A stretch of 33,167 bases of DNA from the NCBI GenBank assembly GCA_026983775.1, contig JALSTK010000121.1:1-33167 (forward strand). The letters are read 5' to 3'. Under the pieces are notes generated by a model. The model was not told the DNA's origin, ran no database searches, and saw only the letters and a program-made list of their open reading frames with translations. Made by a program: the position numbers and the translations under genes. This DNA is from Calditrichia bacterium. GTDB lineage: Bacteria > Calditrichota > Calditrichia > Calditrichales > Calditrichaceae. Position 1 is the stretch's first letter. Every line of letters starts with the position of its first letter. This document shows, piece after piece, positions 3,534-33,167 of the stretch.

Positions 3534-3602
3534 TCAATTTATCCAGACTGCTTAAAAGACCAAACCGTTTTTATTACCCGATGATATCACTACCAATAGT
3601 TG

Positions 3603-4520: not shown

Positions 4521-4644
4521 TAAATTCACCTGTTGTTTATATTTATGGAACGACATCGTTTCCACAAATCATTCAAGCCTTTATCTATGTAAACGACTGA
4601 TCAAACCGCATTAAGCCCGAGTACAATTCCTAATTGCTTACCGG

Positions 4645-7458: not shown

Positions 7459-7469
7459 AATACGTAGCT

Positions 7470-8051: not shown

Positions 8052-8064
8052 TATTGTTACCCTG

Positions 8065-9396: not shown

Positions 9397-9415
9397 AAAA
9401 TGGGATTATCCTGTA

Positions 9416-11239: not shown

Positions 11240-11250
11240 TAAACAAGCCT

Positions 11251-12684
11251 TTAAAATTTTTGTTGTATTCCTTTTAAAAGTTCATCAGCCATAGTGGCGG
11301 CATCATCTGGCATCAGAAAAAACATTGGGAAACCGATAACAATGACATTGAAATCGGTTCCTATATAACGGATACCACATATGTGACCAATAAAGTTTTC
11401 ATCGCTGGCACCGAAATACGAATAAATTCCTTCGGTAAAGCCACCACGCTCTTCAATGGTGTTTATCAAATTCATTTTTCCCTGGTAAGGAAAATACGGA
11501 ATTAAGTCGGGATTAATATTTACCGTACTAAATCCGTTCATTCCTGCAGCACCAAGAAAATCACCGGGAATATAACCTGATTCTTTAGCTCTATTAATAT
11601 GTAGGTAATCATGAACGAACGTACCTTGTTCAAAAACTGTATTATCTAAATTACTACCATAAGCAAAGGAAGAAATAAGTTGCCATCCCGTTGCTATAAA
11701 ACTGCCGCCGACATTCATATAGTCGGCCATTTGCGCTTTATATAACGGTAGTTGATGAGGGCCTGTTGAGGCTGGGCTATCTGCATGCCAAAGCACCTGT
11801 TTGTAGCGCCCTAAGATCTTCTTTGAAGGAAATCCGTCCGCTATCAGGTCCCAGGTTGTATCCGGGTGAAACAATGCATTATAAAAAGAGTCCACATCAG
11901 CATCCGTTGCTTTTACGGTTGCAGGAAAAGAACTTTCGTTCGTTTCATCTATGATTAATAACTGTTTATTAAAAGTTGGCTTTACAAATTCAATTTCTAT
12001 TTCATATCCTTGAGGATCAAACAAATTAGTATTATCCCTTGCTGTAACGCGGATTGTATGTTTACCTTGAAGAGGCTGTGAGAACATATCCGGAGTCAGT
12101 ATTTGAGATGTATCCTGCGTCCACATCCAATCACTTCCATCAATAGAGAAAGCATATTCTTCAACCTCTCCGTCCTGATCATAGGCGGTAAATCGCAGAG
12201 GTACACCTTTCCACCAATCCGTTGGTTTGTCCAAATAAAAAAAATCATCTTTATTATTTGGAAACAAAATAGTAGTGACAGGCAAAATAGTCTGTGGCGT
12301 GTAAATAGTAAGAGTCGCAGGAGTAGGATCAACTGTGCCCTTGTTATCAATAGCACGTACTTTCAATACCTGGCGGTTCATTACATCGCTGGACTCAAAA
12401 ATAATATTGAATATTTCGTCTTCTGTATAGGTCCAGTCGAGATGAAAGGAGTCTCCTTTCGTGAGATGATAGGTTGTATAGCTATACTGGCAACCCGTGA
12501 TATAGCCGTCTTCATCCCCGCCGTCCCAGGTTATTTGTACAACCGGGAAAAGAGTATCATTTTGAACCGGAATATTGGACAGAGTCGTATTCGGAGGTTT
12601 ATTTTCAGCCGGCGGTGACGTGGCTGGTTTGCAAGCCCAACCTGCTAAAAATACGATAACAACTAAGAGTAATTTCTTTTTCAT
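11251..12684 (-). CDS. Lipoprotein with Ig-like domains and ThuA/GATase-like C-terminal half
   Basis: 477 residues. Lipobox at GWAC (Cys18), then a proline-rich linker. Two Ig/Fn3-like repeats cover about 30-240 (ITWDGGDEDGYI ... VRAIDNKG and LRFTAYDQDGEVEEYAFSIDG ... VTARDNTN). The second half from about 245 has an alternating alpha/beta pattern (KQLLIIDETNES, KQVLWHADSPAS, ADYMNVGGSFIATGWQ, DFNVIVIGFPMFF) resembling the flavodoxin/ThuA or class I glutamine-amidotransferase-like fold; no catalytic cysteine of a GATase nucleophile elbow is apparent. Anchored in the outer membrane, it may bind glycans or assist the receptor. No Shine-Dalgarno sequence is seen. The gene is preceded by a perfect 20-base palindrome that may set its expression below that of the LamG gene. 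Lipoprotein status is firm, the fold moderate, the function unknown. Confidence 0.78.
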   Translation of the reverse strand: MKKKLLLVVIVFLAGWACKPATSPPAENKPPNTTLSNIPVQNDTLFPVVQITWDGGDEDGYITGCQYSYTTYHLTKGDSFHLDWTYTEDEIFNIIFESSDVMNRQVLKVRAIDNKGTVDPTPATLTIYTPQTILPVTTILFPNNKDDFFYLDKPTDWWKGVPLRFTAYDQDGEVEEYAFSIDGSDWMWTQDTSQILTPDMFSQPLQGKHTIRVTARDNTNLFDPQGYEIEIEFVKPTFNKQLLIIDETNESSFPATVKATDADVDSFYNALFHPDTTWDLIADGFPSKKILGRYKQVLWHADSPASTGPHQLPLYKAQMADYMNVGGSFIATGWQLISSFAYGSNLDNTVFEQGTFVHDYLHINRAKESGYIPGDFLGAAGMNGFSTVNINPDLIPYFPYQGKMNLINTIEERGGFTEGIYSYFGASDENFIGHICGIRYIGTDFNVIVIGFPMFFLMPDDAATMADELLKGIQQKF

Positions 12685-12711
12685 ATTAATTACTTTTATG
12701 TTAAGTAGAAA

Positions 12712-12731
12712 GAGGCAGGATATCCTGCCTC
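12712..12731 (-). terminator. Perfect 20-base palindrome between operon genes, possible attenuating terminator or RNA-processing hairpin
   Basis: GAGGCAGG-ATAT-CCTGCCTC forms an 8-bp GC-rich stem with a 4-base loop (or a 10+10 perfect palindrome). It lies 17 bases after the LamG-gene stop and 27 bases before the next ATG. On the transcribed strand it is followed by TTTCTACTT, a broken T-run. This could end part of the transcripts or protect the 3' end of the LamG-gene message. Sequence is clear; function is inferred. Confidence 0.55.
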
Positions 12732-12748
12732 ATTATCTGAAAAATATT

Positions 12749-15700
12749 TTACCGAATAAACATCATTTTCTTAACCGCACTAAATTCACCGGCCTTAATC
12801 CGGTAAAAATAGATGCCACTTGGTAATTGCAATCCTTGATCGCTCTTTCCATTCCAAGTAATTTTATGATATCCGGCAGTGAGGTTCTTACTTAATAACG
12901 TTCTTACTTTTTGACCCAAGATATTATAAATCTGCAATTCCACAGTATTTGCAGCTGGAATAGAAAAACGAATTTCAGTGGACGGATTGAATGGATTAGG
13001 AAAATTCTGTTTCAAAGCATATTGGATTGGTACAAGATCCTCATGATCATCGATCGCAGTTCCAACTTCTTTCTTGGAATAATTATAAATCTTAATATCG
13101 TCAAATAAACCATTAAAAACCGGAGCCGGTTCCCACCATGAACGACCTAAGGTAAACAACCCGCCCACCTGATTTATATGCTGACCATTGATATCCATAC
13201 TTGCCTTATCCAATAGATTATAATCAGCGTCATAAAGTTCCACGTAAGCAGAATCGCTGCCAACATCCAGCACATAATGATACCATTTGTCCACTTCGAT
13301 TCTGGTATCATTGACTAACCACAAATCTTTCCATTCCCAGTTTGCTTCGGCAGGATCATTCGCTATAAGATGGATTTCATTGCGTATTTTCCCATCCGGT
13401 TGAAAAGAAATACGATAGCCGAAGCGCCAGGTGTTGGCCGGATCAGGATATTTGGCAATTAAATCGGTACCGTCTGCCGGTAGTTGACCAAGTGCTTTAA
13501 AACTAACTTCCACAGTAATCTGATCATTCACTAGAAAAGGAGCCGGCGGAAGTACCTGAATATAGCTGGTATCATTATACTGCAAAGAATAGCTACCGCT
13601 AGCGGCATCCGCATTGTATTGGGGGGATCCAATGACAGTCACTTCACTCCCATAACCGGATTTGTCGAGAGGAACGCCTGAACCTTCTTCAAAATCCAAC
13701 GAAAAGGTAAGCGTGTTTTGATCTGCATAAGCTAACGTATTTGCACCACTACCCGGAATCATAACCGTCTTACCGGCATCATTTTTGGCTTCGATGTAAT
13801 AATACAGTACCGTACCCTTAGTCTGCCCGGGTATATCTGTAGAGAAGGTCATGGTGCCATCATAGTTCATTGCATGTTCATTATAGTTGGTACCGTCTGT
13901 GCTGTAGAAGAGTGTCGCCTTACTGGCATGTTCAATGTCGGCCGAAATAGTAACCGTCTGATCAGGCAGCACCTGTTTCGTTGCCGGCTCCGTAAACTTT
14001 CGTACTGCAGGTGGCAGATTTGCCGCATAATTATATAGCTTCAGGTTATCGATTTTACCTATATAATGCCAGGGTAACATAAAATCGTACCGATCCCCTC
14101 CCAAAGTCCATTCTCCGGCACGGGGCTTTAATCCGCCGGGAAAGGAGGTTGCCGTTTCCTGGATCAGATTGTCGTCCGCATCATACAGTTCCAAAATCGC
14201 CTGGCCGTTTTCAGTTGAATATTTTACGATTAAATGATACCATTTATGCGCTTCCATCGTAGAATCGATATAGGCTTGCGCCCAATCTTTTTCATTTGTG
14301 AAAAATTCAAGCGTTAGACGTCCATCCCAAAAATTCCACCATAAACGATAACCGAATCGCCAATCATTACGATCGTAAGGCCATTCCTGCCACTTAGCCA
14401 TGATGACTTCATTGGGAAAAATGGAATCCGGATTCAACCAAAAATCAATGGTCATATCTTCTGAAGAAAGATAGGCGGCCGGTTTTTCCACTTTTAAAAT
14501 ATAGCTGGAATCGCATTGCAAAGAGTAATTTCCAAATTTTGCTACATCAGAATATTTAACCGTACCATATGAATCCACGACGGTATGATGTAAAGCAGAA
14601 GAATCATACAGACTTTGTTCAAAATCCATGGCGAGGACCATACTATGTTCCATGCCATATGTAATGCCGTAGTATGCGCCTGAATCACTCATGGTTGATT
14701 TTTGGGAATTGGCTATAAATCCATACGAATTCTGAGCAGTAATATAATACTTTACCTCAACACCTTCCGCCTGGCCGGGAATTGTCGCCGAATAAACAGA
14801 ACCTTGCTGGTGTGTCATCGCCACTTCGGTAAATTCATCTCCGGTTGAATAAAATAAATTGACATCGGTCAGGGTACCTGATGGTGATACAACCTCCGCC
14901 TGAACTTCCAAATCTTCATTCGGTGTTAGATGTACAATTACACCATTTAAAACTTTCTTAATAACAGGAGGCATAGGAAATTGCCGCACTACATTACTAA
15001 TACGAAATTCATCCAGGAGGCCGTTTAAAGAACCGTCATGCCATTCATAAGAAAAACCGATAGTGAGAGGATCGTCATTGAGCCTGGGACGTTCCGTCGG
15101 ACTATCTTCCTGAACAATATAATTGAAAGCCACTAAATTACCGGACACATCATGCACAGCAACCATAAACAGATTGTCGGCATCATCCCGTATTGAAGCC
15201 AAATGGTACCAGGTATTTAACTGAAAGGATTGGACATCTGTCCAAACATCGCCCCATCCGTTCTCTACTTTTTCATAGCCGGTTTGAAAAAAACGGCGAC
15301 CGGGGTCTCCCATGGCACCCACCCAATAATTATGTCCTTTTACTGCTAGCTTGGGATATGTGTGCCAATCTTCGTTAGACACTCCCACAGAGAACACATT
15401 AATCCAACCTTCAATCGTCCATGTTTTGTCAATATCTAATCCGGATGTGTCTGGAATTTCAATAAAAGAGGAATCAGAACGGGCATCATTATCCAGATAA
15501 AGATACTTCCCAAACTCACCGCTGCTTCCCAAATCGGTATTGTTCAAGTACATTAAATTACCAAATCCGGTTCCGTCACGGGTAGAATCAGATACATTGG
15601 TGAGATCATCATTGAGATGAAGCAGCACCACGGTATGATCGTCCAGCGTATAAGGCTGGGTCAGATCATCCACATTTTGCGCCATGCCACTATTGAAAAA

Positions 15701-15754
15701 TAGTATCATGAGTGCAAAGATAAAACTGAAGTGTAACATTTTAAGCGATCGCAT
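12749..15754 (-). CDS. Large secreted protein with three LamG/concanavalin-like domains and type IX sorting domain
   Basis: The start is taken at the ATG at 15754 (MRSLKML), since AGGAGG lies 4-5 bases before it; an ATG 13 codons upstream has no such site. The 1001-residue product has a signal peptide (to SGMAQ) and then three similar units. Each has a LamG-like jelly roll (VVLLHLNDD, MVLAMDFEQSLYDSS, LTFSLDFEEGSG; each with DKWYHY- or HKWYHL-type strands), and the first two are followed by an Ig-like spacer with FYSTG/FYSTDG and KYYITAQN/YYYIEAKN. It ends with a canonical sorting domain (LKQNFPNPFNPSTEIRF ... GIYFYRI). LamG-type folds often bind or cleave glycans; no catalytic motif was recognised, so a multivalent glycan-binding surface protein is likely. 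It is the first gene after lacI and has its own operator. Confidence 0.88.
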   Translation of the reverse strand: MRSLKMLHFSFIFALMILFFNSGMAQNVDDLTQPYTLDDHTVVLLHLNDDLTNVSDSTRDGTGFGNLMYLNNTDLGSSGEFGKYLYLDNDARSDSSFIEIPDTSGLDIDKTWTIEGWINVFSVGVSNEDWHTYPKLAVKGHNYWVGAMGDPGRRFFQTGYEKVENGWGDVWTDVQSFQLNTWYHLASIRDDADNLFMVAVHDVSGNLVAFNYIVQEDSPTERPRLNDDPLTIGFSYEWHDGSLNGLLDEFRISNVVRQFPMPPVIKKVLNGVIVHLTPNEDLEVQAEVVSPSGTLTDVNLFYSTGDEFTEVAMTHQQGSVYSATIPGQAEGVEVKYYITAQNSYGFIANSQKSTMSDSGAYYGITYGMEHSMVLAMDFEQSLYDSSALHHTVVDSYGTVKYSDVAKFGNYSLQCDSSYILKVEKPAAYLSSEDMTIDFWLNPDSIFPNEVIMAKWQEWPYDRNDWRFGYRLWWNFWDGRLTLEFFTNEKDWAQAYIDSTMEAHKWYHLIVKYSTENGQAILELYDADDNLIQETATSFPGGLKPRAGEWTLGGDRYDFMLPWHYIGKIDNLKLYNYAANLPPAVRKFTEPATKQVLPDQTVTISADIEHASKATLFYSTDGTNYNEHAMNYDGTMTFSTDIPGQTKGTVLYYYIEAKNDAGKTVMIPGSGANTLAYADQNTLTFSLDFEEGSGVPLDKSGYGSEVTVIGSPQYNADAASGSYSLQYNDTSYIQVLPPAPFLVNDQITVEVSFKALGQLPADGTDLIAKYPDPANTWRFGYRISFQPDGKIRNEIHLIANDPAEANWEWKDLWLVNDTRIEVDKWYHYVLDVGSDSAYVELYDADYNLLDKASMDINGQHINQVGGLFTLGRSWWEPAPVFNGLFDDIKIYNYSKKEVGTAIDDHEDLVPIQYALKQNFPNPFNPSTEIRFSIPAANTVELQIYNILGQKVRTLLSKNLTAGYHKITWNGKSDQGLQLPSGIYFYRIKAGEFSAVKKMMFIR

Positions 15755-15815
15755 CGCTCCTCCTTTGGTTAAGTGAAACATAAATGCGTTCATTTTTTTT
15801 AGAGATCAACAATAA

Positions 15816-15825
15816 CACACGTGTG
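15816..15825. promoter_or_regulatory. LacI-type operator upstream of the LamG gene
   Basis: CACACGTGTG is a perfect 10-base palindrome with the central CG step usual for LacI-family operators. On the minus strand it sits in CGCACACGTGTGT, identical over 13 bases to the copy at the lacI promoter. It lies 61 bases before the LamG-gene start. A TATAAG that could be a -10 element (15829-15834) ends 3 bases before the palindrome, similar to the geometry at lacI, though no good -35 is seen. Repeated sequence is certain; binding by the adjacent LacI-type protein is inferred. Confidence 0.75.
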
Positions 15826-15842
15826 CGTCTTATAAAAACAGA

Positions 15843-16877
15843 TCACGACGACGCTCGAACGATTAATCGTGTAGGAAGTACGATCTCTTCTTTCTGTCCG
15901 TCTTCATTTAATATTTGCTTAATTAACAGATCCGCCGCCGCTTTCCCCATTTCAAACGATGGTTGCTCTACAGTGGTAAGCGCCGGATTCACAAATGCGG
16001 AGATGGGATTGTTCGAAAATCCGACAACACTCAGATCCTCCGGAATCTTCAATCCTTTCTTTTTCAGCACCTCATACACACCCAGAGCGACAGGATCATT
16101 TACGGCAAAAACGGCATCCGGCATATTGGCGCTATCGGCAAGCAATTCTTCCATACCGGCAACGCCATCCTCTTCCTGCAGCCCTTTCCAAACTACTTTT
16201 TGCTGCTCAATGGGAAACCCGTTATCCTTTAAGGCGGCTTTGTATCCTTCGTATCGTTTACGCGAAATTTCCAATTGTTTGGTTCCTCCTATATGGTAAA
16301 TGCGCTTGCGCCCCTTTTGGATTAAATGATTCACCGCTTGATAGGCCCCTCGAAAGTCATTAACAATCACAGATGCCGTGTTGAATTCCCGGCATACTCG
16401 GTCGAAAAATACCAGGGGAATACCTCTTTCCTGATATAATTTAAAATGATCACACTTATGGGTTGTTTGTGACATGGAGACCAACAGGCCGGCCACCTTA
16501 TTGGATAAGAGAGCCCTGGCGTTCATAACTTCACGCTCGTATTGTTCATTGGATTGGCATACCATAATCACATAGCCTTTGCTATAGGCCACGTCTTCTA
16601 TTCCGCTGATAACCGCCGAGAAGAAATGGTGTTTTATCTCGGGAACAATTACACCGATGATATTGGTGGTGTTCTGTTTTAGATTGCGGGCAAAAATATC
16701 GGGTTCATAATTCATGGCTTCGGCGGTTTCCAGGATCAGCTTTCGGGTCGCTTCCTTTACATCGGGATGATTATGCAAGGCCCTGGATACCGTACTATGA
16801 TGAATATTCAGCTTCTTGGCTATATCTTTTATTGTAGGACGATGGTTTATGATGATTTTCCCCACACGTTTGCGCAC
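15843..16877 (-). CDS. LacI-family transcriptional regulator of the polysaccharide locus
   Basis: 344 residues from a GTG at 16877; a second in-frame GTG at 16865 is an equally possible start, and neither has a Shine-Dalgarno sequence, so the message may be leaderless. The N-terminal LacI helix-turn-helix is complete (TIKDIAKKLNIHHSTVSRAL, residues 15-34), followed by the hinge (NYEPDIFARNLKQNTTNIIG) and a periplasmic-binding-protein-like sensor domain (GVIVPEIKHHFFSAVISGIE, DAVFAVNDPVALGVYEVLKK, NPALTTVEQP). Such proteins are dimeric repressors (rarely activators) released by a sugar or sugar phosphate. The gene lies 88 bases upstream of the LamG gene on the same strand, and the two shared operators predict autoregulation plus control of the whole operon. 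The ligand is not predictable, probably a mono- or disaccharide released by the GH43/GH2 enzymes. Confidence 0.95.
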   Translation of the reverse strand: MRKRVGKIIINHRPTIKDIAKKLNIHHSTVSRALHNHPDVKEATRKLILETAEAMNYEPDIFARNLKQNTTNIIGVIVPEIKHHFFSAVISGIEDVAYSKGYVIMVCQSNEQYEREVMNARALLSNKVAGLLVSMSQTTHKCDHFKLYQERGIPLVFFDRVCREFNTASVIVNDFRGAYQAVNHLIQKGRKRIYHIGGTKQLEISRKRYEGYKAALKDNGFPIEQQKVVWKGLQEEDGVAGMEELLADSANMPDAVFAVNDPVALGVYEVLKKKGLKIPEDLSVVGFSNNPISAFVNPALTTVEQPSFEMGKAAADLLIKQILNEDGQKEEIVLPTRLIVRASS

Positions 16878-16884
16878 ACGTGTG
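16875..16884. promoter_or_regulatory. LacI-type operator overlapping lacI transcription start
   Basis: Second copy of the palindrome CACACGTGTG, one base downstream of the lacI -10 box and overlapping the GTG start at 16877. A protein bound here would cover the predicted +1 site, the classic place for autorepression. A further partial copy (CACACGT, 16863-16869) lies 12 bases away inside the first codons. The sequence match with 15816-15825 is exact; regulation is inferred. Confidence 0.8.
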
Positions 16885-16885
16885 T

Positions 16886-16914
16886 ATTATAATCATTATT
16901 TTTCGATTTGTCAA
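16886..16914 (-). promoter_or_regulatory. Consensus sigma-70 promoter of lacI
   Basis: Read on the minus strand, TTGACA (16914-16909) is followed by a 17-base spacer and TATAAT (16891-16886), a perfect match to the housekeeping sigma-70 consensus. The predicted start of transcription falls inside the operator palindrome, 6-8 bases downstream, at or next to the GTG start codon. Confidence 0.85.
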
Positions 16915-17210
16915 GAAAAAAATTTTTTTTACCCTTTGACCCTCTTGCTAAAAATGTTTTTCCACTATTGATCTGATTCTTTAGGTGACAAGAAGGATAC
17001 CAGGAAGCGATTATTGATTAAATAAAAAATCCGGATCGTACCGATATAGCCATAAATATCGACGGAAGATTCCAACCGCTCGTACCGGAACCCGAGGCCC
17101 TAAACCATCAGCCGTGTCTTACTCTTTCCTGTATTTTTATTCCGCTTATCCCTACTCCCTGCATAATTCATCTTACCCAGGCGCCCTTCCGAATTCCCGG
17201 ATCTGTTGAC
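16915..17210. other. Intergenic region between the alpha-galactosidase gene and the lacI promoter
   Basis: About 300 bases without a gene. It lies downstream of the alpha-galactosidase stop and upstream of the lacI promoter. I see no RNA gene, no strong terminator hairpin with a T-run and no repeat of note; the part next to the promoter (16915-16960) is a run of A/T. Confidence 0.6.
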
Positions 17211-18452
17211 CTATTTTGTTATTTTTATCATCACGGCAGCATGCGCAGGAACGGTTACCGAATATTTGTTTTTATAGATTCCCAAATTCTTTTTTAGCCA
17301 CAAGTCGCGTACTCTAGCCTGTTTGGTGTTATCCCACCCGATATCCTTCCACGAAACAGACATCACAGCGTCATTTTCCCCTCTGTTAAACAGAACAACC
17401 GCCCGATTCCCATCGCTCAATTCTCTGGCCCAGACTTCAAGATCACCGGAATCTTTTATTTTCCTTCCTTGTTTCCCTAATCGATCCTGATCAACGGCAA
17501 TGACTTCTCTATTGGTCAGAATCTCTTTGATTTCCGGAGACATATTTCTCAGGTCATTTCCAGCCATAAGAGGAGCCGCTAAGATCGCCCACAGACTGAA
17601 ATGGGCACGGCTTTCCCCCGGGGTCAGTCCGCTGTTTCCGACCTCAAGCATATCCGGGTCGTTCCAGTGGCCGGGACCGGCATATTTCGCCAAACTATCC
17701 TGGGCATCCAGAATAAAAATAAAACCCATTCCGCCCCAGTCCGTTCTGCAATCCCAACAATTCAGAATATCTTCCGTGGTACGCCATAAATTACCGCCGA
17801 CCTCTTTGCCCCATCTCCACGGTTGATTCGTGCCCCATTCACAAATACTGTATACAATCGGCCGGCCGGTTTTGCGCAACGCCTTCCCCATGATTTCATA
17901 AGAAGCGCGAGCATTTTGAAAACCGTGATGACACCAGTCATATTTTAAATAGTCCACACCCCATTTTGCATACTGCCGGGCATCCTGAAATTCATATCCC
18001 CTGCTTCCCGGTCTGCCCTGACAAGTCTTTGTTCCGGCATCTGAGTATATTCCGAATTTCAACCCTTTGGAGTGAATATAATCGGCCAAAGCCTTGATAC
18101 CGGATGGAAATTTTTCGGGATCCGCCATTATATTCCCTGATGAATCTCTGCTTTTCTGCCAGCAGTCGTCGATAACCACATATTCGTATCCTGCATCTTT
18201 CATCCCGCTTTGCACCATGGCATCGGCAATTTCTTTAATTAAATTTTCATTAATATTACAGGCAAAAAGATTCCAGCTATTCCAGCCCATGGGAGGGGTC
18301 GGCGCTAATGTATCCGCCCCCGTTTCGGAAAAAGCCAGGGCTAAACTATCGGTGCCTTGGCCATACAACCCTGCGTTAAAGACAAACGTACTAAACAGAA
18401 TCAAAATGACCATATACAGGGTAATCGTTTTCAAATCTTCTTTTTTAATCAT
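17211..18452 (-). CDS. GH27 alpha-galactosidase, secreted
   Basis: 413 residues, GGAG about 9 bases before the ATG. Residues 1-32 form an uncleaved or cleaved N-terminal hydrophobic segment. GH27 hallmarks follow: PPMGWNSWNLFACNINE (54-70), VIDDCWQ, the nucleophile Asp172 in DYLKYDWC, and the acid/base Asp228 in WRTTEDILNCW. The barrel continues with GHWNDPDMLEVGN and the C-terminal beta-sandwich (ALFNRGEND-like segment VVLFNRGEND). GH27 enzymes are retaining and remove terminal alpha-1,6-galactose, for example from galactomannan or raffinose-type sugars, and some members act on alpha-N-acetylgalactosamine or beta-L-arabinopyranose. No type IX sorting domain is present, so it is probably periplasmic. 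It is transcribed toward lacI but is separated from it by 333 bases and has no copy of the operator, so co-regulation is unproven. Confidence 0.95.
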   Translation of the reverse strand: MIKKEDLKTITLYMVILILFSTFVFNAGLYGQGTDSLALAFSETGADTLAPTPPMGWNSWNLFACNINENLIKEIADAMVQSGMKDAGYEYVVIDDCWQKSRDSSGNIMADPEKFPSGIKALADYIHSKGLKFGIYSDAGTKTCQGRPGSRGYEFQDARQYAKWGVDYLKYDWCHHGFQNARASYEIMGKALRKTGRPIVYSICEWGTNQPWRWGKEVGGNLWRTTEDILNCWDCRTDWGGMGFIFILDAQDSLAKYAGPGHWNDPDMLEVGNSGLTPGESRAHFSLWAILAAPLMAGNDLRNMSPEIKEILTNREVIAVDQDRLGKQGRKIKDSGDLEVWARELSDGNRAVVLFNRGENDAVMSVSWKDIGWDNTKQARVRDLWLKKNLGIYKNKYSVTVPAHAAVMIKITK

Positions 18453-24027: not shown

Positions 24028-25401
24028 CTATAAATCGAAATACATTTCATACTCGATAGGATTGGGCCAATTAGAGACGCGGTTGAATTCTTCGTTCTTG
24101 GTATGAATCCAGAGCCGAATCAATTCTTTACTAAAAATACCGTCCCGTAATAAAAAGTCATGATCTTTTTCCAAATTTTCCAGGGCCATATTCAAACTGA
24201 ACGGCAAATAGTTCATTTCGATTTTGGGATTAAAATCCTCCGCCTCATAGGGTCCGTACCCCGCTTTCACCGGGTCTATTTTATTGAGCACTCCATCCAG
24301 ACCGGCCAGCATGATGGCATTTAATGACAGATAAGGATTCGCTGTGGCATCCGGAGGACGATATTCGAAACGAGTCTGCTGCCTGTTTCTTACATAACGG
24401 GGGATACGAACACAGGAGGCCCGGTTGGCCTGACCGAAATTGATGGCAGTGGGCGCTTCCACGCCGGGAACCAGCCGTTTGAAAGAATTCGTTGTCGGAT
24501 TGGTCAGTGCAGTCAGGGCCGGAGCGTGCTTCAATACACCTCCTATATAGTACATGGCGGTCTGACTCAGGTTGGCATACTTCCCTTTTTCATAAAACAC
24601 ATTTTGCTGCCCGCGCATCAGGTAGTGATGCACATGTAAACCGGAACCGGCCTGTTTATATAAAGGTTTGGGCATGAAAGTTAAAAAGAGACCCTTCTGC
24701 CGGGCCAGGTTATGTAAGATATATTTAGCTATGATTATTTTATCCGCTGTGGGCAGAAGCGCATCGAAATTAGCCTCTATCTCCTGCTGTCCTAAATTAC
24801 CCACCTCATGATGGTGATATTTTATGGATAATCCGGCTCGCATCAGTAGACGGGTTGCTTCATCCCGGAAATCATCATAGACATCCAGCGGATTGGCAAT
24901 ATGATAACCGTTGGGACTAAATCCTTCGTCGGATTCGATCCTGAAAAAGGCATTTTTAGAAGAAGCTTTAAATCCTACTTGTGATAGAATATAAAATTCG
25001 AATTCCGGCCCCCACAGGGTATATTCGGCTATATCATACTTTTTTAATAGATTTTCGGCAGCCTGAGCCATATTGCGCAGATCATATTGATATGGAGTGG
25101 TTTGATCATCCGTATTAAAAATTTTGGTAAAAAAGCTTAAAGTAGGTGCCGTCCGGAAGGGATCGATTAAAGCCGTATCCATATCCGGTTTCATAATCAT
25201 ATCACTATTTTCCACGCGACGGAAGCCGTAACTGGAACCGTCAAATCCCGTACCTTCGCTATTAAGGCGGTCCAGCGTCTCTTCGGAATAAGGCAGGCTT
25301 AAATGATGCAAACGGCCGATTAAATCCGTTACCTTCAGATCAATGAATTCGATCGTACGTTCTTTGGCTATTCGACGAATCTTATGTTTGGGTACACGCA
25401 T
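24028..25401 (-). CDS. glnA: Type I glutamine synthetase
   Basis: 457 residues from the ATG at 25401, preceded by AGGAGG; a TTG six codons upstream overlaps that site and is rejected. It condenses glutamate and ammonia to glutamine using ATP. Signature parts are intact: GTGFDGSSYGF (latch region), the metal-binding WGPEFEFYIL and HHHEVGNLGQQEIE, the ATP/glutamate loop GSGLHVHHYL, and NPTTNSFKRLVPG with RFEYRPPDATANPYL. The E. coli adenylylation motif NLYDLP is replaced by KIEMNYLPFSL, so control by adenylylation is unlikely; it resembles the GSI-alpha group. It follows the nitrilase-family gene with a 124-base gap that contains a small hairpin, so it may have its own promoter or belong to the BMC/ACT/UPF0210 run. 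Confidence 0.95.
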   Translation of the reverse strand: MRVPKHKIRRIAKERTIEFIDLKVTDLIGRLHHLSLPYSEETLDRLNSEGTGFDGSSYGFRRVENSDMIMKPDMDTALIDPFRTAPTLSFFTKIFNTDDQTTPYQYDLRNMAQAAENLLKKYDIAEYTLWGPEFEFYILSQVGFKASSKNAFFRIESDEGFSPNGYHIANPLDVYDDFRDEATRLLMRAGLSIKYHHHEVGNLGQQEIEANFDALLPTADKIIIAKYILHNLARQKGLFLTFMPKPLYKQAGSGLHVHHYLMRGQQNVFYEKGKYANLSQTAMYYIGGVLKHAPALTALTNPTTNSFKRLVPGVEAPTAINFGQANRASCVRIPRYVRNRQQTRFEYRPPDATANPYLSLNAIMLAGLDGVLNKIDPVKAGYGPYEAEDFNPKIEMNYLPFSLNMALENLEKDHDFLLRDGIFSKELIRLWIHTKNEEFNRVSNWPNPIEYEMYFDL

Positions 25402-25525
25402 TCCGCCTCCTTTATTCAAATGGAAATTTTACGATTTTGGTACGCGTATTTAAAGTTGACGGAAGAAGTTCTGGTATCCGGAAGATAAACCCGGGCGGTT
25501 TGGGGATGAAAATCATCCGATATAC

Positions 25526-26386
25526 TCAATAGTTTTTCCGATCCTCATAAATTCGACTCAGTTCTTCAATCACTACATGCAAATTCTCATCACTCAACAG
25601 GGTCGTATTAATCCGGGCGTGTTTCAATTTGAGCATATCGATTTCGGCATAGAGCATGGCCTCATCAAAATAGGGAGCTTTAAAAAGCCGGCTACCCAAA
25701 GGCCCGTTCACTTCCGACCCCCCCCAAAACATCAGGCCGTCTTCCACGCCGACCCGATTGGCAAAAACCATATAGGAGGTGGTATAAATAGACAAAGAGC
25801 GGTTCAGTGCTTCCCAGTCATGGACATTCTCGGGTTTGGAGTCGGCCTGCAACCCGCGGGCAATACCGGCAGCGGAAGCAAAAATCACCGAAGCGCCATC
25901 CTGAGCCAGAATAACTCCGGAAGTAGGATGCCATACATCCTCGCAGATTAACAAACCGAAGCGTCCGAACTTCGAATCAAAGGCCCGGAAACGGTTGCCG
26001 GCACTGAAGTAGCGTTTTTCTTCGAATAAACCGTAGGTCGGTAAATAGACTTTGCGATGGTGAGTCAGCAACCGACCGTCTTCAAAGAAAAATACACTAT
26101 TATATATCTCATAGCGCTCACTCAGTTCTACGGCACCGACAACAATCGATATTTTTCGGCTTAATTCTTTTATCCGGTCAAAGCGGGAATCGTCTCGGTG
26201 CAAAGCCACATCATAGACCGCATCTTTTAGAGAATAGCCTGCTAACGATAGTTCCGGAAAGATGATGATATCCTGTTTTTGCTCAATAGCCTTCTCGATA
26301 TAACGATAGTGCGTATCCAGATTTTTTTCCAGATTTGCCAAGACGGGATTAATCTGGGCCAGGGCAATTTTGATTTTCTGTTTCAT
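25526..26386 (-). CDS. Nitrilase-superfamily carbon-nitrogen hydrolase
   Basis: 286 residues. The Glu-Lys-Cys triad is visible: Glu45 (IIFPELSLAGY), Lys112 (HHRKVYLPT) and Cys148 (LLICEDVWH). The sequence around the triad (SLAGYSLKDAVYD, HRKVYLPTYGLFEEKRYF) resembles the glutaminase domain of NAD synthetase, but there is no synthetase domain, so it is a free-standing amidase. Substrate unknown; it would release ammonia from an amide. It lies 36 bases downstream of the UPF0210 gene and upstream of glutamine synthetase, which could recapture the ammonia. That functional link is inference from order only. Confidence 0.9.
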   Translation of the reverse strand: MKQKIKIALAQINPVLANLEKNLDTHYRYIEKAIEQKQDIIIFPELSLAGYSLKDAVYDVALHRDDSRFDRIKELSRKISIVVGAVELSERYEIYNSVFFFEDGRLLTHHRKVYLPTYGLFEEKRYFSAGNRFRAFDSKFGRFGLLICEDVWHPTSGVILAQDGASVIFASAAGIARGLQADSKPENVHDWEALNRSLSIYTTSYMVFANRVGVEDGLMFWGGSEVNGPLGSRLFKAPYFDEAMLYAEIDMLKLKHARINTTLLSDENLHVVIEELSRIYEDRKNY

Positions 26387-26422: not shown

Positions 26423-27787
26423 TTAATTATTGGCCCCGCGGGTGGGTGCCGGGAATCGTCCGCCGCGACGGATAAAGATATTATTGGACAATTGGGAGAC
26501 CGGCATGATCGGCGCTTCCCCCAGCAAGCCGCCGTAATCCACACTATCCCCTACGTCTTTACCGGGTACGGGAATGGCGCGCACGGCAGTGGTTTTATTA
26601 TTGGTAATGCCAATAGCCGCCTCATCGGCAATCATACCCGCAATCACTTCGGCGGGAGTTTTGCCGGGGATGGCTACCATATCCAGGCCGACACTACACA
26701 CACTGGTCATGGCCTCCAGTTTTTCAATAGAGATGTGACCTTTTTTCACGGCCTCAATCATACCGGCATCTTCGGAAACGGGAATAAAGGCCCCGCTCAA
26801 TCCGCCTACATGGGAAGAAGCCATCAATCCGCCGCGTTTTACGGAGTCATTCAAAAGAGCCAGGGCGGCCGTTGTTCCCGTGGCGCCCACGTCTTCCAGA
26901 CCCATGGCTTTTAGAATATCGGCTACGCTATCCCCTTGCAGCGGGGTCGGCGCCAATGAAATATCGACAATACCGAAAGGAACGTTTTGCAATCGGGCTA
27001 CTTCATGACCGATAAAGATACCGGCCCGGGTTATTTTAAAGGCCATGGCCCGGATACGATCGGCCAGCGCGGAAAAGTCCAAATCTTCTTCCGCTTCCCG
27101 AACCGCCCGTAGGACTACACCGGGGCCGGAGATACCGACATTGACCACAACATCGGGCTCGGAGACGCCGTGAAAGGCGCCGGCAATGAAAGGATTATCC
27201 TCCGGCACATTGGCAAAGACAACCAGTTTGGCACAACCAATGGCATCCCGATCGGCCGTGGCCCGGGCCGTCTCTTTGACTATTTCCCCCATCATGCGAA
27301 TCGCTTCCATATTCATTCCCGCTTTGGTGGAAGCGACATTAACCGAGGAGCAAATATGTTCGGTAGAGGCCAATGCCTCGGGAATGGCCTGAATCAACTG
27401 GCGGTCGCCCGGGGTAAAGCCCTTTTGGACCAGGGCGGAAAATCCACCCAGATAATCGATTCCCAGCTCGTCGGCCGCTTTATCCAGGACCCGGGCAATT
27501 TCAATATAGTCTTCTTTATAGAATCCCTCGGCGGCAATCGCCAGGGGAGTGACGGCCAGCCGTTTATTGGCGATGGAAATGCCATAGGCCGATTCGACCT
27601 TGCGGGCCATTTTCACATGTTCTGCGGCAATACGGGTTACTTTATCGTAAATATTGGTCTTTAATCGCTGCAAATCATCACTGCGACAATCCAGTAAACT
27701 GATTCCCATGGTCACCGTGCGGATATCAAAATGTTCCACTTCGGTCATGCGGATGGTTTCCAGAATTTCCTCAAGAGATATGGGCAT
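26423..27787 (-). CDS. UPF0210 (DUF711) family protein
   Basis: 454 residues, the usual length. The N-terminus [11 protein letters not shown] ... [15 protein letters not shown] and internal segments ([57 protein letters not shown]) are those of the DUF711/UPF0210 family, which is structurally related to the pyruvate formate-lyase fold but lacks a glycyl-radical domain. Its biochemical function is unknown. It starts 2 bases after the ACT-domain gene; the pairing of UPF0210 with a UPF0237 ACT protein is conserved in many bacteria and archaea and suggests that the ACT protein senses a ligand or regulates this enzyme. Confidence 0.93.
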
Positions 27788-27789
27788 AA

Positions 27790-28233
27790 TCAGATCCTGT
27801 GCATGGCGTTAAAAATGTCTTCGTGCTGAACAATTACTTTCAGGTCCAGGTCCTCACCGCGACGCACGACTTCCTGCTTTATTTCTTCAAAACTCATATT
27901 GCAATTGCTGATGTCAACCAGCAGCATAATCGTAAAAAATTCCTGTAAAATCTTCTGGCTCAGGTCCAGGATGTCACATTGATGTTCGGCCAGAATTGCG
28001 GTTAGTCCGGCAAGAATCCCGATCCGGTTCCGACCGAAAGCCGTGATGATGATGCGGTTATGGGTCTGATTGATAGGAGTGGTTTGCCTGGACACCGCTC
28101 CCGGTTCTTCGCGGGCCACACGTTCGGCCGCTTCCCGGACCACTTGTTCTATTTTTTCTTCCGTGGCATCCTTACCGAGCTGACGAACCGCTTCCTCGGC
28201 AATTTTTCGAATTTCCTGTTCATTCAAGGTCAT
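27790..28233 (-). CDS. UPF0237-type ACT-domain protein with encapsulation-peptide-like N-terminal extension
   Basis: 147 residues from the ATG at 28233 (GGTAAG 4 bases upstream); an ATG four codons earlier has no ribosome binding site. The C-terminal ~90 residues are the UPF0237 ACT domain ([20 protein letters not shown] ... [15 protein letters not shown]), normally a stand-alone protein of about that size that binds small ligands such as amino acids. Here it is preceded by an extra ~55 residues: [20 protein letters not shown], a second helix ([19 protein letters not shown]) and a polar linker. That helix-plus-linker layout resembles the tags that target enzymes into bacterial microcompartments, and a BMC vertex gene lies just upstream (37 bases). 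The ACT assignment is firm; the targeting role is inference. Confidence 0.88.
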
Positions 28234-28270
28234 ATTGCTTACCATTTTATTATTTTATTACGGCCGGGAT

Positions 28271-28588
28271 TCAGGTTTGCGCCTTATCCTTTTGCAATTT
28301 TTTCAGATAGTCTTCATCCACATCCATCCGATCGACAATCCCCACCACCGCTGCTTCCAGACTCAGGCTGGAGGGGTCTTCGGGATAGATGGCCTGACGG
28401 GCGGCATGGCCGTAAGCACAAATTACGGTCTCCCCCACTCCGGCTCCCAACACATCCGCGGCCACCACCACATCGGTTAACGGAGCTTTTTTAAGATTGA
28501 TGGGATGAATCAATAAGAAGCGGAGATTGGTCAGATTATCCGTCTTTTTGGTCGACCATACCGAACCGACAACTTTTCCCAGAAACAA
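28271..28588 (-). CDS. Bacterial microcompartment vertex protein, EutN/CcmL family (BMC-P)
   Basis: 105 residues from a TTG at 28588, preceded by AGAGGT 6-7 bases upstream. The start MFLGKVVGSVWSTKK, the middle VVAADVLGAGVGETVICAYGHAAR and the end AAVVGIVDRMDV are the pentameric EutN/CcmL fold that caps the vertices of microcompartment shells. The C-terminal tail (DEDYLKKLQKDKAQT) is a little longer than usual. No hexameric shell gene (BMC-H or BMC-T) or signature enzyme lies in the window, so it is an orphan here; other shell genes may be elsewhere. It appears to be the first gene of the run ACT protein - UPF0210 - amidohydrolase. A weak promoter candidate (TTGTAC-19-TATAAA, minus strand, 28678-28648) lies upstream. 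Confidence 0.88.
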   Translation of the reverse strand: MFLGKVVGSVWSTKKTDNLTNLRFLLIHPINLKKAPLTDVVVAADVLGAGVGETVICAYGHAARQAIYPEDPSSLSLEAAVVGIVDRMDVDEDYLKKLQKDKAQT

Positions 28589-29141
28589 AACGCGACCTCT
28601 TGTTATTTCTTAGTTTCCAATTTATGATACCCGGAATGTAGTGGTTTTTTATAATAGTTTCAACATCCTGTGGTACAATGTTTTGCAAAGGGCTTCCGGA
28701 GGTTTTTCGGTTTTTCTTTGCCGCACGGGTATTCCCATTACGAACGAAGCGACATCTTTAGGGAAATGCCCTGTACCTGTTTGAGCGGAGCTGTACCGGG
28801 TCCGGCCGATACCTACCGTTTAGCGATTACCGATTAGCTGCCCCAAAGAAGTCGTTGGTCACGGATTCACGAGCGACAGCGGGGTTTGTTGTCGTGGTGA
28901 TTTAACCGATTATTTTATACGGAAAAATTCCTGATAAAAACGGATCTTTATAAAAAATCGGTTTTAATCTAAAAAAATATTTTTATGAGGAAGGATTCCG
29001 GAATAGTATCTGTTTTTATTTATTGATCATTTTAAGGGTAATTGATGTATGTTCTGTTAAAATCGGGTCTTATCAAACCGTCCCGGCCCCTGGTTAATAA
29101 TTTAAAAGGATCTTTATCGGGTTTTGCAAAAGGGAGAAAAA

Positions 29142-29171
29142 ATGCGTATTATGGGTAAGTTTTCGGTATAA
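29142..29171 (+). other. Nine-codon mini-ORF with strong ribosome binding site, possible truncated gene start
   Basis: AGGGAG (29131-29136) lies 5 bases before an ATG that opens MRIMGKFSV and then stops. The ribosome binding site is better than that of the following 745-residue gene. It may be a leader peptide, or the surviving first codons of a host gene cut by insertion of the AT-rich DNA that begins here. Either reading is inference. Confidence 0.35.
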
Positions 29172-29172
29172 T
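29167..29172 (+). promoter_or_regulatory. Candidate -10 element (TATAAT) before the nuclease-like gene
   Basis: TATAAT lies 71 bases before the ATG at 29244, overlapping the mini-ORF stop. No TTGACA-like -35 is found at 16-18 bases upstream, so this is a weak candidate in an AT-rich context. Confidence 0.3.
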
Positions 29173-29243
29173 TAATAGTTAAATTTGCTTTTTTCGCTCA
29201 ATATAAATCTTTAATTTATTTTTTAATTTTAATGTGAGTAAAA

Positions 29244-31481
29244 ATGAAATTTTTTGAAATGAAGAATCCCTTTGCTGGGCTAAATACTAGTGAACGAGAA
29301 AAACTTGTTCACGATATTGGTCAACAGTTTAAAAAAGAAGTTGACGATGGGCTTGGTGAGTTAAAAACGATTTTAAAATCATACAGTATTGTCGATTTAT
29401 TAAGCTGGTTATCAACATACTTTTTGACTTCAATTAGTTCAAAGTTTTATGAAAAATTCGACTTAAAAGAGTTTCATCAATTTCACGCAGAAATACTTCA
29501 AGCTCTTTATTTACAATATGAGAAAAATGAATTCAAGGAATGGAAACCTGTACTACCTGATGATGCAATAAAGATTTCAGAATTAGTCGATAAAGTGTCT
29601 TTTGCCTTTGCTAATCTTAGACTTTCTGAAGTTAAACTTGACGATGAAGATGAGATGAAAAGGTTTTTGTTCCTCGAAAAAATGCGCACAATGACAATGT
29701 CAATTAGAAATTGGGGGTATCCAGAGCAAATTGATAAAATTGTGACAGAAATATATAGTGAAATTGATTCAGAAATATTGGAAGAAACCTCTATTAGCAT
29801 AATTGGCATATTTAATATGTTCACTTCTATACAAAGCAAAGTTAATGACAATATCAACATACATTTTGATGGAATTAATAAAATACTTGGTTCTGATAGC
29901 ATAGAAGCTCTTCGCAGTAATTATAAAATTCTCCATAAGGATGTTGAACTAGATTTGAATGAATTAGAAAAATTACAAAGCGAATATGGTGATTTTAATA
30001 AGTTAAAATCAATGTTTGCTTATCATCACGATTCATTTTTAAGAGATAAATATACTTTTACTATTTCCGAGCTTCTTGATTTTTATGGTAATGAAATTGA
30101 TAAGGATTTAATGATAAATGTTTTAGATAATTTTTCATATACAATTGGGGGGCTAAAGGATTATAGGACTGAGTATATATTTTTAGCAAATCCAATTTGG
30201 AAAAAACCATTTATCAAGATTGATTCAGAAACCTATGCTTTACCTATTCCAGGTATTCTGAATAGTTTTGTTCTCGAACTATTAGAATCAATTTTTTCTA
30301 AGAATTCAAAACTAAAAAAACTTTATGAAGATCGTAGGGCAGAATTTTTAGAAAACGCAATTTCTGATTTATTTAAATCTTCTTTTCCTGATTGTGAAGT
30401 TTTTCAGGGAAGTCTTTATGATGAATATGAAAACGACTTAACGGTTATTGTTGATAAATATGCGTTTGTAGTTGAAGCAAAATCAGGGAAATTTACTGAT
30501 CCGGCTAAAAGAGGTGCACCAGACCGGTTAAAAAAACATATTGAAGAATTAATTAGCGAACCTTCTATTCAAGCCACTCGATTCGCTGAATATTTACAGC
30601 AACAGAATACAGTTGTTACTTTAAACACAAAAAGTGGGATAAAAAATACTATTGACCTTTCAAATGTAAGTAGGGTAGTTAAAATAGGTGTCACATTAGA
30701 ATTGCTTGGTAATCTTTCCTCTTCATATAAACAAATGTATGAATTGGGTTTTATTTCAGATTTTAAAGATTTATCAATAAATTTTTGTTTCCCTGATCTA
30801 TATCTTATTTTTGACTTCTTAAAATTTCCTTCTGAAAAAATTCACTTTCTAATTAGACGAGAAGAATTTGGTAAAAATGCAAACTTCTTTGCCGATGAGA
30901 TAGATTTACTTGCTTTTTATATGGAAACTGGTTTCAATATAGGTGATGAAGAATTTAATGGTAGAGAATTAATGTTATATGGAATATCTGAGGTATTCGA
31001 TGATTATTTTCTACAGAGACAATTATCTTCAACCTCATCATCAGCCTATACTCCAAAACCAAAGCGAACAAAATGGTTCAATGATATCTTGAAGAGATTT
31101 GAATCGAAAAAATTTCCTGGTTGGACTGAGATTTCTATGAATATATTAAATCTATCTTATGAAGATCAGGTAAAATTTGAAGAGATGTTCCGTAAACGAA
31201 TTGAAACAAGTAAATTAAATTGGGGTAATGAGGATAATGAGAACACTGTTGTTCTCTATAATGGGCCTCCACAAAGAAGAGAATTGCTAATTGGATTCGC
31301 CTATAAAGATTGGGTGAAATCAAAGAGGGATGATATTATTGGAACATTTGCTCAAAAAGTTATGGAAGAAGAGAATTTACCTAGAGCAGTTGTGTTAGTT
31401 GTTAATATTGAACAAAACCATTATCCCTATAGTTGTATGATGGTTTTTTTAAATTCTCGCTTAAACACAGAGCAAATTTAA
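29244..31481 (+). CDS. Large protein with PD-(D/E)XK nuclease motif, candidate defence effector
   Basis: 745 residues, very AT-rich codon use unlike all genes to its left. I recognise no named family. Residues 1-360 are mostly helical and acidic, without signal peptide or membrane segments. A PD-(D/E)XK-type core follows: an alpha helix with Glu370 (RRAEFLENAISDLF), Asp398 (ENDLTVIVD), then Glu411-x-Lys413 on the next strand (FVVEAKSGK), and a helix with SIQATRFAEYL like the Q-x-x-x-Y motif of RecB/NERD-type nucleases. Residues 470-745 are alpha/beta and unassigned. The ATG has only a weak GAG upstream. A UvrD-like helicase gene follows after a 150-base gap on the same strand. Nuclease plus SF1 helicase recalls Gabija-like logic, but the nuclease here is not the OLD/Toprim type of GajA. 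Defence function is inferred. Confidence 0.75.
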   Translation: MKFFEMKNPFAGLNTSEREKLVHDIGQQFKKEVDDGLGELKTILKSYSIVDLLSWLSTYFLTSISSKFYEKFDLKEFHQFHAEILQALYLQYEKNEFKEWKPVLPDDAIKISELVDKVSFAFANLRLSEVKLDDEDEMKRFLFLEKMRTMTMSIRNWGYPEQIDKIVTEIYSEIDSEILEETSISIIGIFNMFTSIQSKVNDNINIHFDGINKILGSDSIEALRSNYKILHKDVELDLNELEKLQSEYGDFNKLKSMFAYHHDSFLRDKYTFTISELLDFYGNEIDKDLMINVLDNFSYTIGGLKDYRTEYIFLANPIWKKPFIKIDSETYALPIPGILNSFVLELLESIFSKNSKLKKLYEDRRAEFLENAISDLFKSSFPDCEVFQGSLYDEYENDLTVIVDKYAFVVEAKSGKFTDPAKRGAPDRLKKHIEELISEPSIQATRFAEYLQQQNTVVTLNTKSGIKNTIDLSNVSRVVKIGVTLELLGNLSSSYKQMYELGFISDFKDLSINFCFPDLYLIFDFLKFPSEKIHFLIRREEFGKNANFFADEIDLLAFYMETGFNIGDEEFNGRELMLYGISEVFDDYFLQRQLSSTSSSAYTPKPKRTKWFNDILKRFESKKFPGWTEISMNILNLSYEDQVKFEEMFRKRIETSKLNWGNEDNENTVVLYNGPPQRRELLIGFAYKDWVKSKRDDIIGTFAQKVMEEENLPRAVVLVVNIEQNHYPYSCMMVFLNSRLNTEQI

Positions 31482-31607
31482 CAAAGTAATGCACCTGAAT
31501 TTAAACGCGTCCGGTTCTTTTGCAATTTCATCGAACCGAGCAATAGTATTAGCATACTCAAAGTAATCGCCGCTTGGTTTAAATCAGGTGATTACCGTCC
31601 GTTAGAG
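31476..31607. repeat. attC-like imperfect inverted repeat between nuclease and helicase genes
   Basis: Left arm: ATTTAAC (31476-31482, fits RYYYAAC and contains the TAA stop of the upstream gene), then GTAATGCACCTGAATTTAAAC. Right arm: GTTTAAATCAGGTGATTAC (31578-31595 area) then GTTAGAG (31601-31607, close to GTTRRRY but ending in G). The arms pair almost perfectly except for two unpaired bases on the left arm, as in integron attC sites with extrahelical bases. The centre holds smaller hairpins (CGGTTC 31512-31517 / GAACCG 31533-31538; AGTAT/ATACT 31545-31558). Total 132 bp, within the attC size range. No integrase gene is in the window. Confidence 0.5.
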
Positions 31608-31631
31608 AGCGTTCTTAAAATTTGAGTTATT

Positions 31632-33167
31632 ATGAAAATATTATTAGCAGGGCCAGGAACAGGAAAAACAACAAAAATAAAATCTCTTATTAGAAATGAA
31701 TATCGAGATTTTGAAAATATACTTGTTTTATCATTTACTAATGCTACTGTTAATGATTTAAAAGGTAGTTTTAGAGATTTTGAAAATGTTGAAATTTATA
31801 CATTACATAGCTATGCACTAAAAATTAATCATTTGCCACACTTACACGTTCTAAATGATAGAACTGAAACGCAAGTTATGGAAAGATATGCAAGGATTGC
31901 TAATATTGAATTCAATGAGTTTTGTTCTCTTGTCAATTGTGTAACTTTTCAATACATGATTGAAAATTGTATTTCATTTATTAAAGCTAATCCTGCCTAT
32001 GCTATTGAAAATATTGGCGAAATTGATTTATTAATAGTAGATGAATTTCAAGATTTTAATGAAATAGAACGTGAATTGGTATATTTATTATCTGAATATT
32101 CAAAAGAAACAATTATTTTAGGGGATGACGATCAATCAATCTATGGTTTTAAAGATGCTGATCCAGATGGCATAATTAGCCTTTATAATAATGATGGAAA
32201 TATTGAAAAATTAGAACACGAGAATATTTGTTATAGATGTCCAGATACAATTGTAGACCATTGTACAAATTTAATAAATAAAAATAATCATAGGATACCT
32301 AAAGAATGGAAAAAATCTAATAAGGAAGGAAGTCTTTATTTCTATCAGTTTGTTACTAATGAAGATACAAACCAATTTTTAATTAAAGAAATTAAACAAA
32401 TTAAAAGTAATTTTAAAGATGATAGTATGCTTATTTTAAGTCCTGTTAGATTTTATATTCCTGGATTACTAAATTATTTAGATATCAATAACATTAAATA
32501 TTTAGATTTTTGGTCGAATGATATTGAAGATGAATTAAGGATCAAAATTTGGTGGTTAAATGCTTTATATGGTAAACATCGTATTCTTTTTCTTTTATTT
32601 CTAACTAAATATTATAATTTTACTAGTAATAGAAGATTTTTAAAATCAATTATATCTTTATTTAAAGAAAATTTTCGTGAAGATACTTTTATAGATTTAA
32701 TTTTATCTTTTAAAATTTTCCCTGATACTTTTTCTGAATATATTATTAAACCAATTCCTATTAAGAGTTTTTTTGAAAAATATCCAGATTATATGATATT
32801 ACAAGATTTTATTGATGAAGATGATCTGGATGATAGTCTAAATAATCTTATGAAAAATATTAATCCAAATCTTCTCTTCGATAAAGAAAAAGTAAATATC
32901 ATGTCAATCCATAAGTCAAAAGGCTTACAAGCAGATAATGTATTTATTTTGAATTTAAATGAAGGTATTATTCCTAATGTTATATCTGGTACAGACACAA
33001 TTGAGGCACAGCGTAGATTACTATATGTTGGTATGACACGAGCAATTAAGAATTTATATTTAATTGCTACTTTATCTTGGGAAGGTAGATATGTACACAG
33101 AGTAGATAAATCTCAATTTAAATATCAGTATCAGAAAAAAGTTTATTTTGGGAAAACATCTAGATTT
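31632..33167 (+). CDS. UvrD-like SF1 helicase lacking the Q-motif (3' end outside window)
   Basis: 512 residues are read from the ATG at 31632; the frame is open at the window edge. An in-frame TGA three codons upstream fixes the start. All SF1A motifs are present: Walker A AGPGTGKTT (6-14), Ia VLSFTNATV (32-40), Walker B IVDEFQD (135-141), III LGDDDQSIYGF (163-173), IV CYRCPDTI (200-207), V IMSIHKSKGLQADNV (423-437) and VI RRLLYVGMTRA (461-471). The Q-motif usual for UvrD/PcrA is missing because the protein starts five residues before Walker A, and the 1B/2B insertions are short. Size and compactness resemble GajB-type helicases. DNA is very AT-rich like the preceding nuclease-like gene, so the two probably arrived together. 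Function in defence or plasmid/phage DNA processing is inferred. Confidence 0.9.
   Translation, partial: MKILLAGPGTGKTTKIKSLIRNEYRDFENILVLSFTNATVNDLKGSFRDFENVEIYTLHSYALKINHLPHLHVLNDRTETQVMERYARIANIEFNEFCSLVNCVTFQYMIENCISFIKANPAYAIENIGEIDLLIVDEFQDFNEIERELVYLLSEYSKETIILGDDDQSIYGFKDADPDGIISLYNNDGNIEKLEHENICYRCPDTIVDHCTNLINKNNHRIPKEWKKSNKEGSLYFYQFVTNEDTNQFLIKEIKQIKSNFKDDSMLILSPVRFYIPGLLNYLDINNIKYLDFWSNDIEDELRIKIWWLNALYGKHRILFLLFLTKYYNFTSNRRFLKSIISLFKENFREDTFIDLILSFKIFPDTFSEYIIKPIPIKSFFEKYPDYMILQDFIDEDDLDDSLNNLMKNINPNLLFDKEKVNIMSIHKSKGLQADNVFILNLNEGIIPNVISGTDTIEAQRRLLYVGMTRAIKNLYLIATLSWEGRYVHRVDKSQFKYQYQKKVYFGKTSRF

Follow-up and report, generated by a model that had tools for sequence, protein, structure and literature searches.

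An EutN-ACT-UPF0210 gene unit as a probable satellite of a dispersed bacterial microcompartment in Calditrichota

In the main text of a 2014 survey of microcompartment (BMC) loci (Axen et al. 2014; PMC4207490), the Caldithrix abyssi locus, which encodes AldDH, a pta-type PTAC and PduS, was classed as a metabolosome with incomplete core (MIC), no signature enzyme being apparent, and sugar phosphate utilising (SPU) compartments were defined by DeoC. The main text of the 2021 catalogue (Sutter et al. 2021; PMC8217296) describes fragmented (FRAG) compartments, whose shell genes lie at up to six sites and which, like MIC compartments, have no signature enzyme, as well as HO compartments, proposed for nucleic acid catabolism, some of which have a tagged aldolase encoded elsewhere in the genome. 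These missing signature enzymes are what makes the locus described here relevant. The UPF0210 family has a ten-stranded barrel as in ribonucleotide reductase and glycyl radical enzymes such as pyruvate formate-lyase, without a candidate radical glycine (PMC4390871). Among the papers of the library searched, none ties UPF0210/DUF711/PF05167 or an ACT protein to a microcompartment.

We analysed a stretch of 33,167 nucleotides from a Calditrichia bacterium (hereafter, the window), on the minus strand of which genes for a EutN/CcmL vertex protein, an N-terminally extended ACT-domain protein and UPF0210 follow one another. In our assessment, this EutN-ACT-UPF0210(-CN hydrolase) unit is probably a satellite of one dispersed metabolosome, a nucleoside/deoxyribose-type BMC into which the tagged ACT protein, as an adaptor, would carry UPF0210. 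The genome, which is 99.5% complete, contains five PF00936 matches, which all lie on contig C51; its four EutN genes are spread over three contigs, the fourth being that of the window. The main locus on C51 encodes a long BMC-H, a ParA-like ATPase, a EutQ-like protein, a phosphotransacetylase, two BMC-H, an AldDH that matches the PRK15398 (EutE-type) subfamily model, EutJ, an RnfC/PduS-like protein and BMC-T. One satellite (C21) combines phosphopentomutase (DeoB) with two EutN genes, and another (C16) consists of EutN, deoxyribose-phosphate aldolase (DERA) with an N-terminal extension and pyrimidine nucleoside phosphorylase. DERA and all EutN genes thus lie away from the main locus, and the same holds in a relative with a closed genome (G005), which has a single PF00936 locus and in which the main locus, a EutN triplet and EutN-ACT-UPF0210-CN hydrolase are found at mutually distant sites. 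The initial annotation had called the vertex gene of the window an orphan, which is ruled out by the BMC-H and BMC-T genes of the same genome.

This system fits the FRAG/MIC/SPU picture, as drawn in the main texts of the two surveys, and adds a type of satellite to it. As in FRAG and MIC compartments (PMC8217296, PMC4207490), shell genes occupy several distant sites and the main-locus AldDH is without an obvious signature enzyme; in contrast to them, the present satellites carry tagged DERA, DeoB and pyrimidine phosphorylase as possible signature enzymes, and an ACT/UPF0210 satellite is not mentioned in the main texts of either paper. With SPU compartments, as presented in the same texts, the system shares a DeoC aldolase (PF01791) supplying acetaldehyde to AldDH and the proposed catabolism of DNA detritus, but its genes are dispersed instead of forming one main locus, its PTA is of the EutD type and not PduL, and it has four EutN. 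The EUT-module satellites of HO and SPU compartments (main text of PMC8217296) likewise join a remote shell gene to enzymes and are proposed to let the main compartment take a wider range of substrates, whereas the present satellite has a pentamer as its shell protein, and its enzyme belongs to a family without an assigned reaction.

Within the dispersed loci, the EutN-DERA-pyrimidine phosphorylase satellite (L012:184-2662, L159 and L256), which in G016 and G024 is preceded by a phosphomannomutase-like gene, is a candidate signature module of the compartment. A ParA-like ATPase gene located between the main-locus shell genes (L010:1196-1960), and conserved in G005 and G016, may position the organelle. 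The EutQ-like protein of the main locus (L010:1974-2306; 111 aa) has two terminal encapsulation-peptide-like segments, helix-loop-helix like the ACT tag, and is possibly an assembly factor.

In the window, transcription proceeds from EutN (28271-28588, minus strand, as for all genes of the unit; 105 aa, TTG start) through the ACT protein (27790-28245; 151 aa) and UPF0210 (26423-27787) to a CN hydrolase of the nitrilase superfamily (25526-26386) and glutamine synthetase (24028-25419). This order agrees with the initial annotation, which had placed a vertex gene directly upstream of the ACT gene and UPF0210, an amidohydrolase (the CN hydrolase) and glutamine synthetase after it. The EutN protein matches PF03319 over its full length (84 bits, with a cut-off of 25; profile positions 1-83 of 83), and its nearest solved sequences are CcmL and EutN/CcmL vertex proteins. 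UPF0210, the proposed passenger of the ACT adaptor, matches PF05167 (DUF711) above the cut-off (612 bits; profile positions 1-412 of 413) and has a solved relative, 2HA9. The CN hydrolase (PF00795), the fourth gene of the satellite, is kept in most lineages; glutamine synthetase is a neighbour only, outside the conserved unit.

The ACT protein matches ACT_6 at residues 64-139 of 151 and NF001220, a 90-aa UPF0237-type model, with 98.8 bits vs. a cut-off of 74. The NF001220 alignment covers residues 63-151 only, leaving about 62 extra residues, and untagged ACT relatives, of about 89-96 aa, start at or near the ACT domain. Because its sequence is conserved among homologues, we rule out that the extension is a start-codon artefact: 11 divergent homologues share the pattern LxExxIRxLAEEAxKQLGxxATPxxVExVVxEAxxR ahead of a variable linker, with R13, L23, A27 and V35 invariant. 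Judging from the sequences of relatives, which begin 1-3 residues ahead of the LNEQEI motif, the true start may be Met5. An AlphaFold2 model built from the alignment of the 11 homologues (mean pLDDT 84) predicts helices at residues 9-26 (28168-28221) and 29-45 (28111-28161; conserved V35, V36 and A39), followed by a flexible linker of variable sequence and length at residues 47-62 (28060-28107), of which residues 47-59 are disordered (pLDDT < 50). The ACT fold begins at residue 64 of the model, and the ACT domain proper, as delimited by the profile matches and the model, comprises residues 63-151 (27793-28059; solved relative 1ZPV). The claim that a UPF0237 ACT protein, normally of about 90 residues, here carries a long N-terminal extension of two helices and a linker is therefore borne out.

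The extension has features of an encapsulation peptide, namely, an amphipathic helix of 15-20 residues at the terminus of the cargo (helix 9-26) and a flexible linker (47-59) that separates the helix from the cargo domain. A scoring matrix derived solely from 15 Calditrichota AldDH N-terminal peptides was applied to the N-terminal sequences of 1,037 further ORFs in the retrieved loci. Most ACT tags scored above every non-AldDH N-terminus; the sole ORFs ahead of most of them were three AldDH proteins, and the tag of the window ranked directly after these. Tag scores were weakest in L093/L094, which represent the most distant lineage (rank 32 of about 1,037), and in G024 (rank 7). The DERA N-terminal peptide likewise scored high on this matrix, and the spacing of hydrophobic residues in the AldDH peptide LSSQEIAQIVNSVLTKL is identical to that in the helix 1 motif of the ACT tag. 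These sequence statistics support the two-helix N-terminus of the ACT protein as a candidate encapsulation peptide, and the matrix ranking is in line with the initial annotation, according to which the extension resembles a microcompartment targeting tag. The resemblance to the encapsulation peptides of metabolosome enzymes consists of the N-terminal amphipathic helix, the AldDH-like hydrophobic spacing within the same organisms and the flexible linker; the ACT tag differs in its second conserved helix and in its cargo, an ACT protein and not a core enzyme. A classical encapsulation peptide is a single helix, and a second helix is unusual for the class.

The same tag was not found on unrelated enzymes: a tag-profile search of 385 genomes recovered only ACT proteins, two short proteins in genomes of another family (G235 and G366) and one probable chance match, a GatB/YqeY-like protein in G049 (identity judged by eye). 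The short proteins, of 118-128 residues (L247:1504-1887 in G366 and L248:1495-1848 in G235), bear the tag but have no ACT domain that could be recognised, and the stretch read around them showed neither shell genes nor UPF0210 or EutN. In the genome of the window, the main-locus EutQ-like protein matched the tag profile weakly (E = 1.4, positions 3-35), which is suggestive only. The other weak non-self matches there (C108 and C135) were judged to be due to chance.

A scan of the genome collection yielded 80 loci with an ACT relative, 19 tagged and 61 untagged; most of the tagged loci are titled Calditrichota or Caldithrix, and some other titles ('Acetofilamentum', 'Caldisericaceae') may represent misnamed metagenome bins. 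EutN is upstream of the ACT gene in 19/19 tagged loci vs. 0/61 untagged loci, and the CN hydrolase follows UPF0210 in each of the 16 tagged loci that extend far enough downstream vs. 0/61 untagged loci. UPF0210 itself lies downstream of ACT in 19/19 tagged and 54/61 untagged loci, the untagged pair being known from Bacilli, Clostridia and archaea. The co-occurrence of the vertex gene with the ACT/UPF0210 pair, a point on which the initial annotation staked its reading, is kept among relatives for tagged ACT proteins only. Glutamine synthetase gave no match in any relative's locus and is adjacent in the genome of the window only; it was rejected as a member of the unit, the conserved neighbour being the CN hydrolase. 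The pair has the same two families in the same order as the SP0238/SP0239-type pair (solved relatives 1ZPV and 2HA9); the difference is that those untagged relatives have no shell genes alongside. UPF0210 has no tag of its own and is about 54-63% identical to the copies of Bacilli and Clostridia, so that its chemistry is probably unchanged and its location alone different, as far as can be judged from sequence.

In a census of 40 Calditrichota genomes, 20 had the tag and 20 did not. The tagged genomes encode EutN in 20/20 cases, UPF0210 in 20/20 and PF00936 proteins in 19/20, compared to 9/20, 0/20 and 10/20, respectively, among the untagged genomes; the BMC-H/BMC-T genes whose presence in related lineages had been proposed as a check are thus found, and the distribution of the tag is nested inside the shell-bearing genomes. 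The tagged genomes are not independent events because most of them belong to one clade. No tagged ACT protein occurs without EutN among the genomes searched for both. As for the tag in a genome without shell genes, a finding that the initial annotation regarded as adverse, nearly all tagged genomes have BMC-H/T, and the single possible exception is G006, in which the tag and 4 EutN genes occur without a PF00936 match, likely due to a lost contig, given that the AldDH of the same locus is also missing. The CN hydrolase can exist apart from the unit, as indicated by a 57% identical protein in G026 (C88:1365-2207), a bin that is 80% complete and in which no tag, UPF0210, EutN or BMC-H/T was found.

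Three cases extend further than a single inherited operon. In G024, from another family of the class, EutN, a PduS-like gene, BMC-T, the tagged ACT gene and UPF0210 form a single run, and in G196, from outside the phylum, BMC-H, EutN, the tagged ACT gene and UPF0210 do so. In G092, also from outside the phylum, three different contigs carry the tagged ACT gene, UPF0210 and a EutN belonging to the same clade, so that linkage is not the sole basis of the co-occurrence; the CN hydrolase is absent from this genome, and an ORF that by eye looks RpiB-like is located close to PduS/BMC-T. The dispersed plan is repeated in G090, again outside the phylum, with DeoB plus a EutN pair, EutN-DERA and EutN-ACT-UPF0210-CN hydrolase. 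In a tree of 98 EutN sequences, all 22 ACT-linked EutN and one EutN of G092 form one group (support 100/99), with about 71-88% identity within the order; the protein is short, and long branches elsewhere in this tree are unreliable. The tree has four main EutN groups.

Under the proposed mechanism, the tag of the ACT protein would act as an encapsulation peptide and the ACT protein, as the gene pairing suggests, would bind the untagged UPF0210 and carry it into the lumen. The co-encoded pentamer would be among the four paralogous vertex proteins that the shell has, in keeping with co-occurrence, the tree and the operons. The fuel of the organelle is most likely acetaldehyde set free from deoxynucleosides, as indicated by the EutE-type AldDH and phosphotransacetylase of the main locus and by the phosphopentomutase, tagged DERA and pyrimidine nucleoside phosphorylase of the satellites. 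Combining the encoded enzymes with established pathway knowledge, the route would lead from pyrimidine deoxynucleosides through deoxyribose-1-phosphate, deoxyribose-5-phosphate, acetaldehyde and acetyl-CoA to acetyl phosphate; alternatively, the main locus may have an ethanolamine role. UPF0210 might then provide a further substrate branch or act on a by-product inside the shell, and the ACT domain would serve as an adaptor and, possibly, a ligand sensor. That relatives of the ACT protein (1ZPV) and of UPF0210 (2HA9) were solved as separate entries counts against the adaptor model. We regard as somewhat short of an even prospect the more specific reading that UPF0210/DUF711 works as an enzyme in the lumen of a fragmented microcompartment, imported by the tagged ACT adaptor and handling a reactive or volatile intermediate, which would give a first functional handle on the family. 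The finding would assign an organelle location to a widespread uncharacterised enzyme family and suggests the import of an untagged partner by a tagged adaptor. The EutN genes can be read as bookmarks, each satellite naming its likely cargo (DeoB; DERA and pyrimidine phosphorylase; ACT-UPF0210), and this makes the function testable.

The alternative that survives best, although we consider it unlikely, is that the tag is an ordinary helical hairpin for dimerisation or partner binding, the vertex protein serves the shell independently, and ACT-UPF0210 is cytosolic and merely co-regulated. The two helices of the tag, its retention on a degenerate ACT-like protein away from shell genes in G235 and G366, and the pairing of UPF0210 with untagged ACT in Bacilli, Clostridia and archaea are all compatible with this possibility; it is opposed by the ranking of the tag above all non-AldDH controls on the encapsulation-peptide matrix, by the constant company of EutN in the genomes searched for both, and by the similar two-helix end of the EutQ-like main-locus protein with its weak tag-profile match. 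There is little to recommend a second microcompartment that would be nitrogen-related, a link that the initial annotation had considered possible, and would share shell proteins with the first, with the pair as its signature module and the CN hydrolase releasing ammonia inside. The conservation of the CN hydrolase beside UPF0210 speaks for it, but a single BMC-H/T set is present in both the genome of the window and the closed genome, the remaining genes of the set suggest acetaldehyde and deoxyribose chemistry, the CN hydrolase is untagged, missing in G092 and present in G026 apart from the unit, and the glutamine synthetase link is not conserved. Finally, a use of the pentamer apart from shells, which was also raised initially, for instance to scaffold or cap an ACT-UPF0210 complex, is scarcely credible given that BMC-H/T genes are present in almost every tagged genome and share an operon with the pair in G024 and G196, even if the EutN clade is distinct, strongly conserved and linked to ACT-UPF0210 in nearly all cases, and G006 has no PF00936 match. 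A satellite of one dispersed metabolosome thus continues to be the reading that we prefer.

The remainder of the window contains other features. Secreted glycoside-hydrolase-like proteins, a TonB-dependent receptor and a LacI-type regulator (ORFs judged by eye) at 1581-18452 seem to form a carbohydrate utilisation locus with no relation to the BMC satellite. Just past the EutN gene, the G+C content drops from about 0.51 to 0.25-0.34 (28600-33167), and this stretch, which includes an ORF of 745 aa of unknown function on the plus strand (29244-31481), looks like recently acquired DNA.
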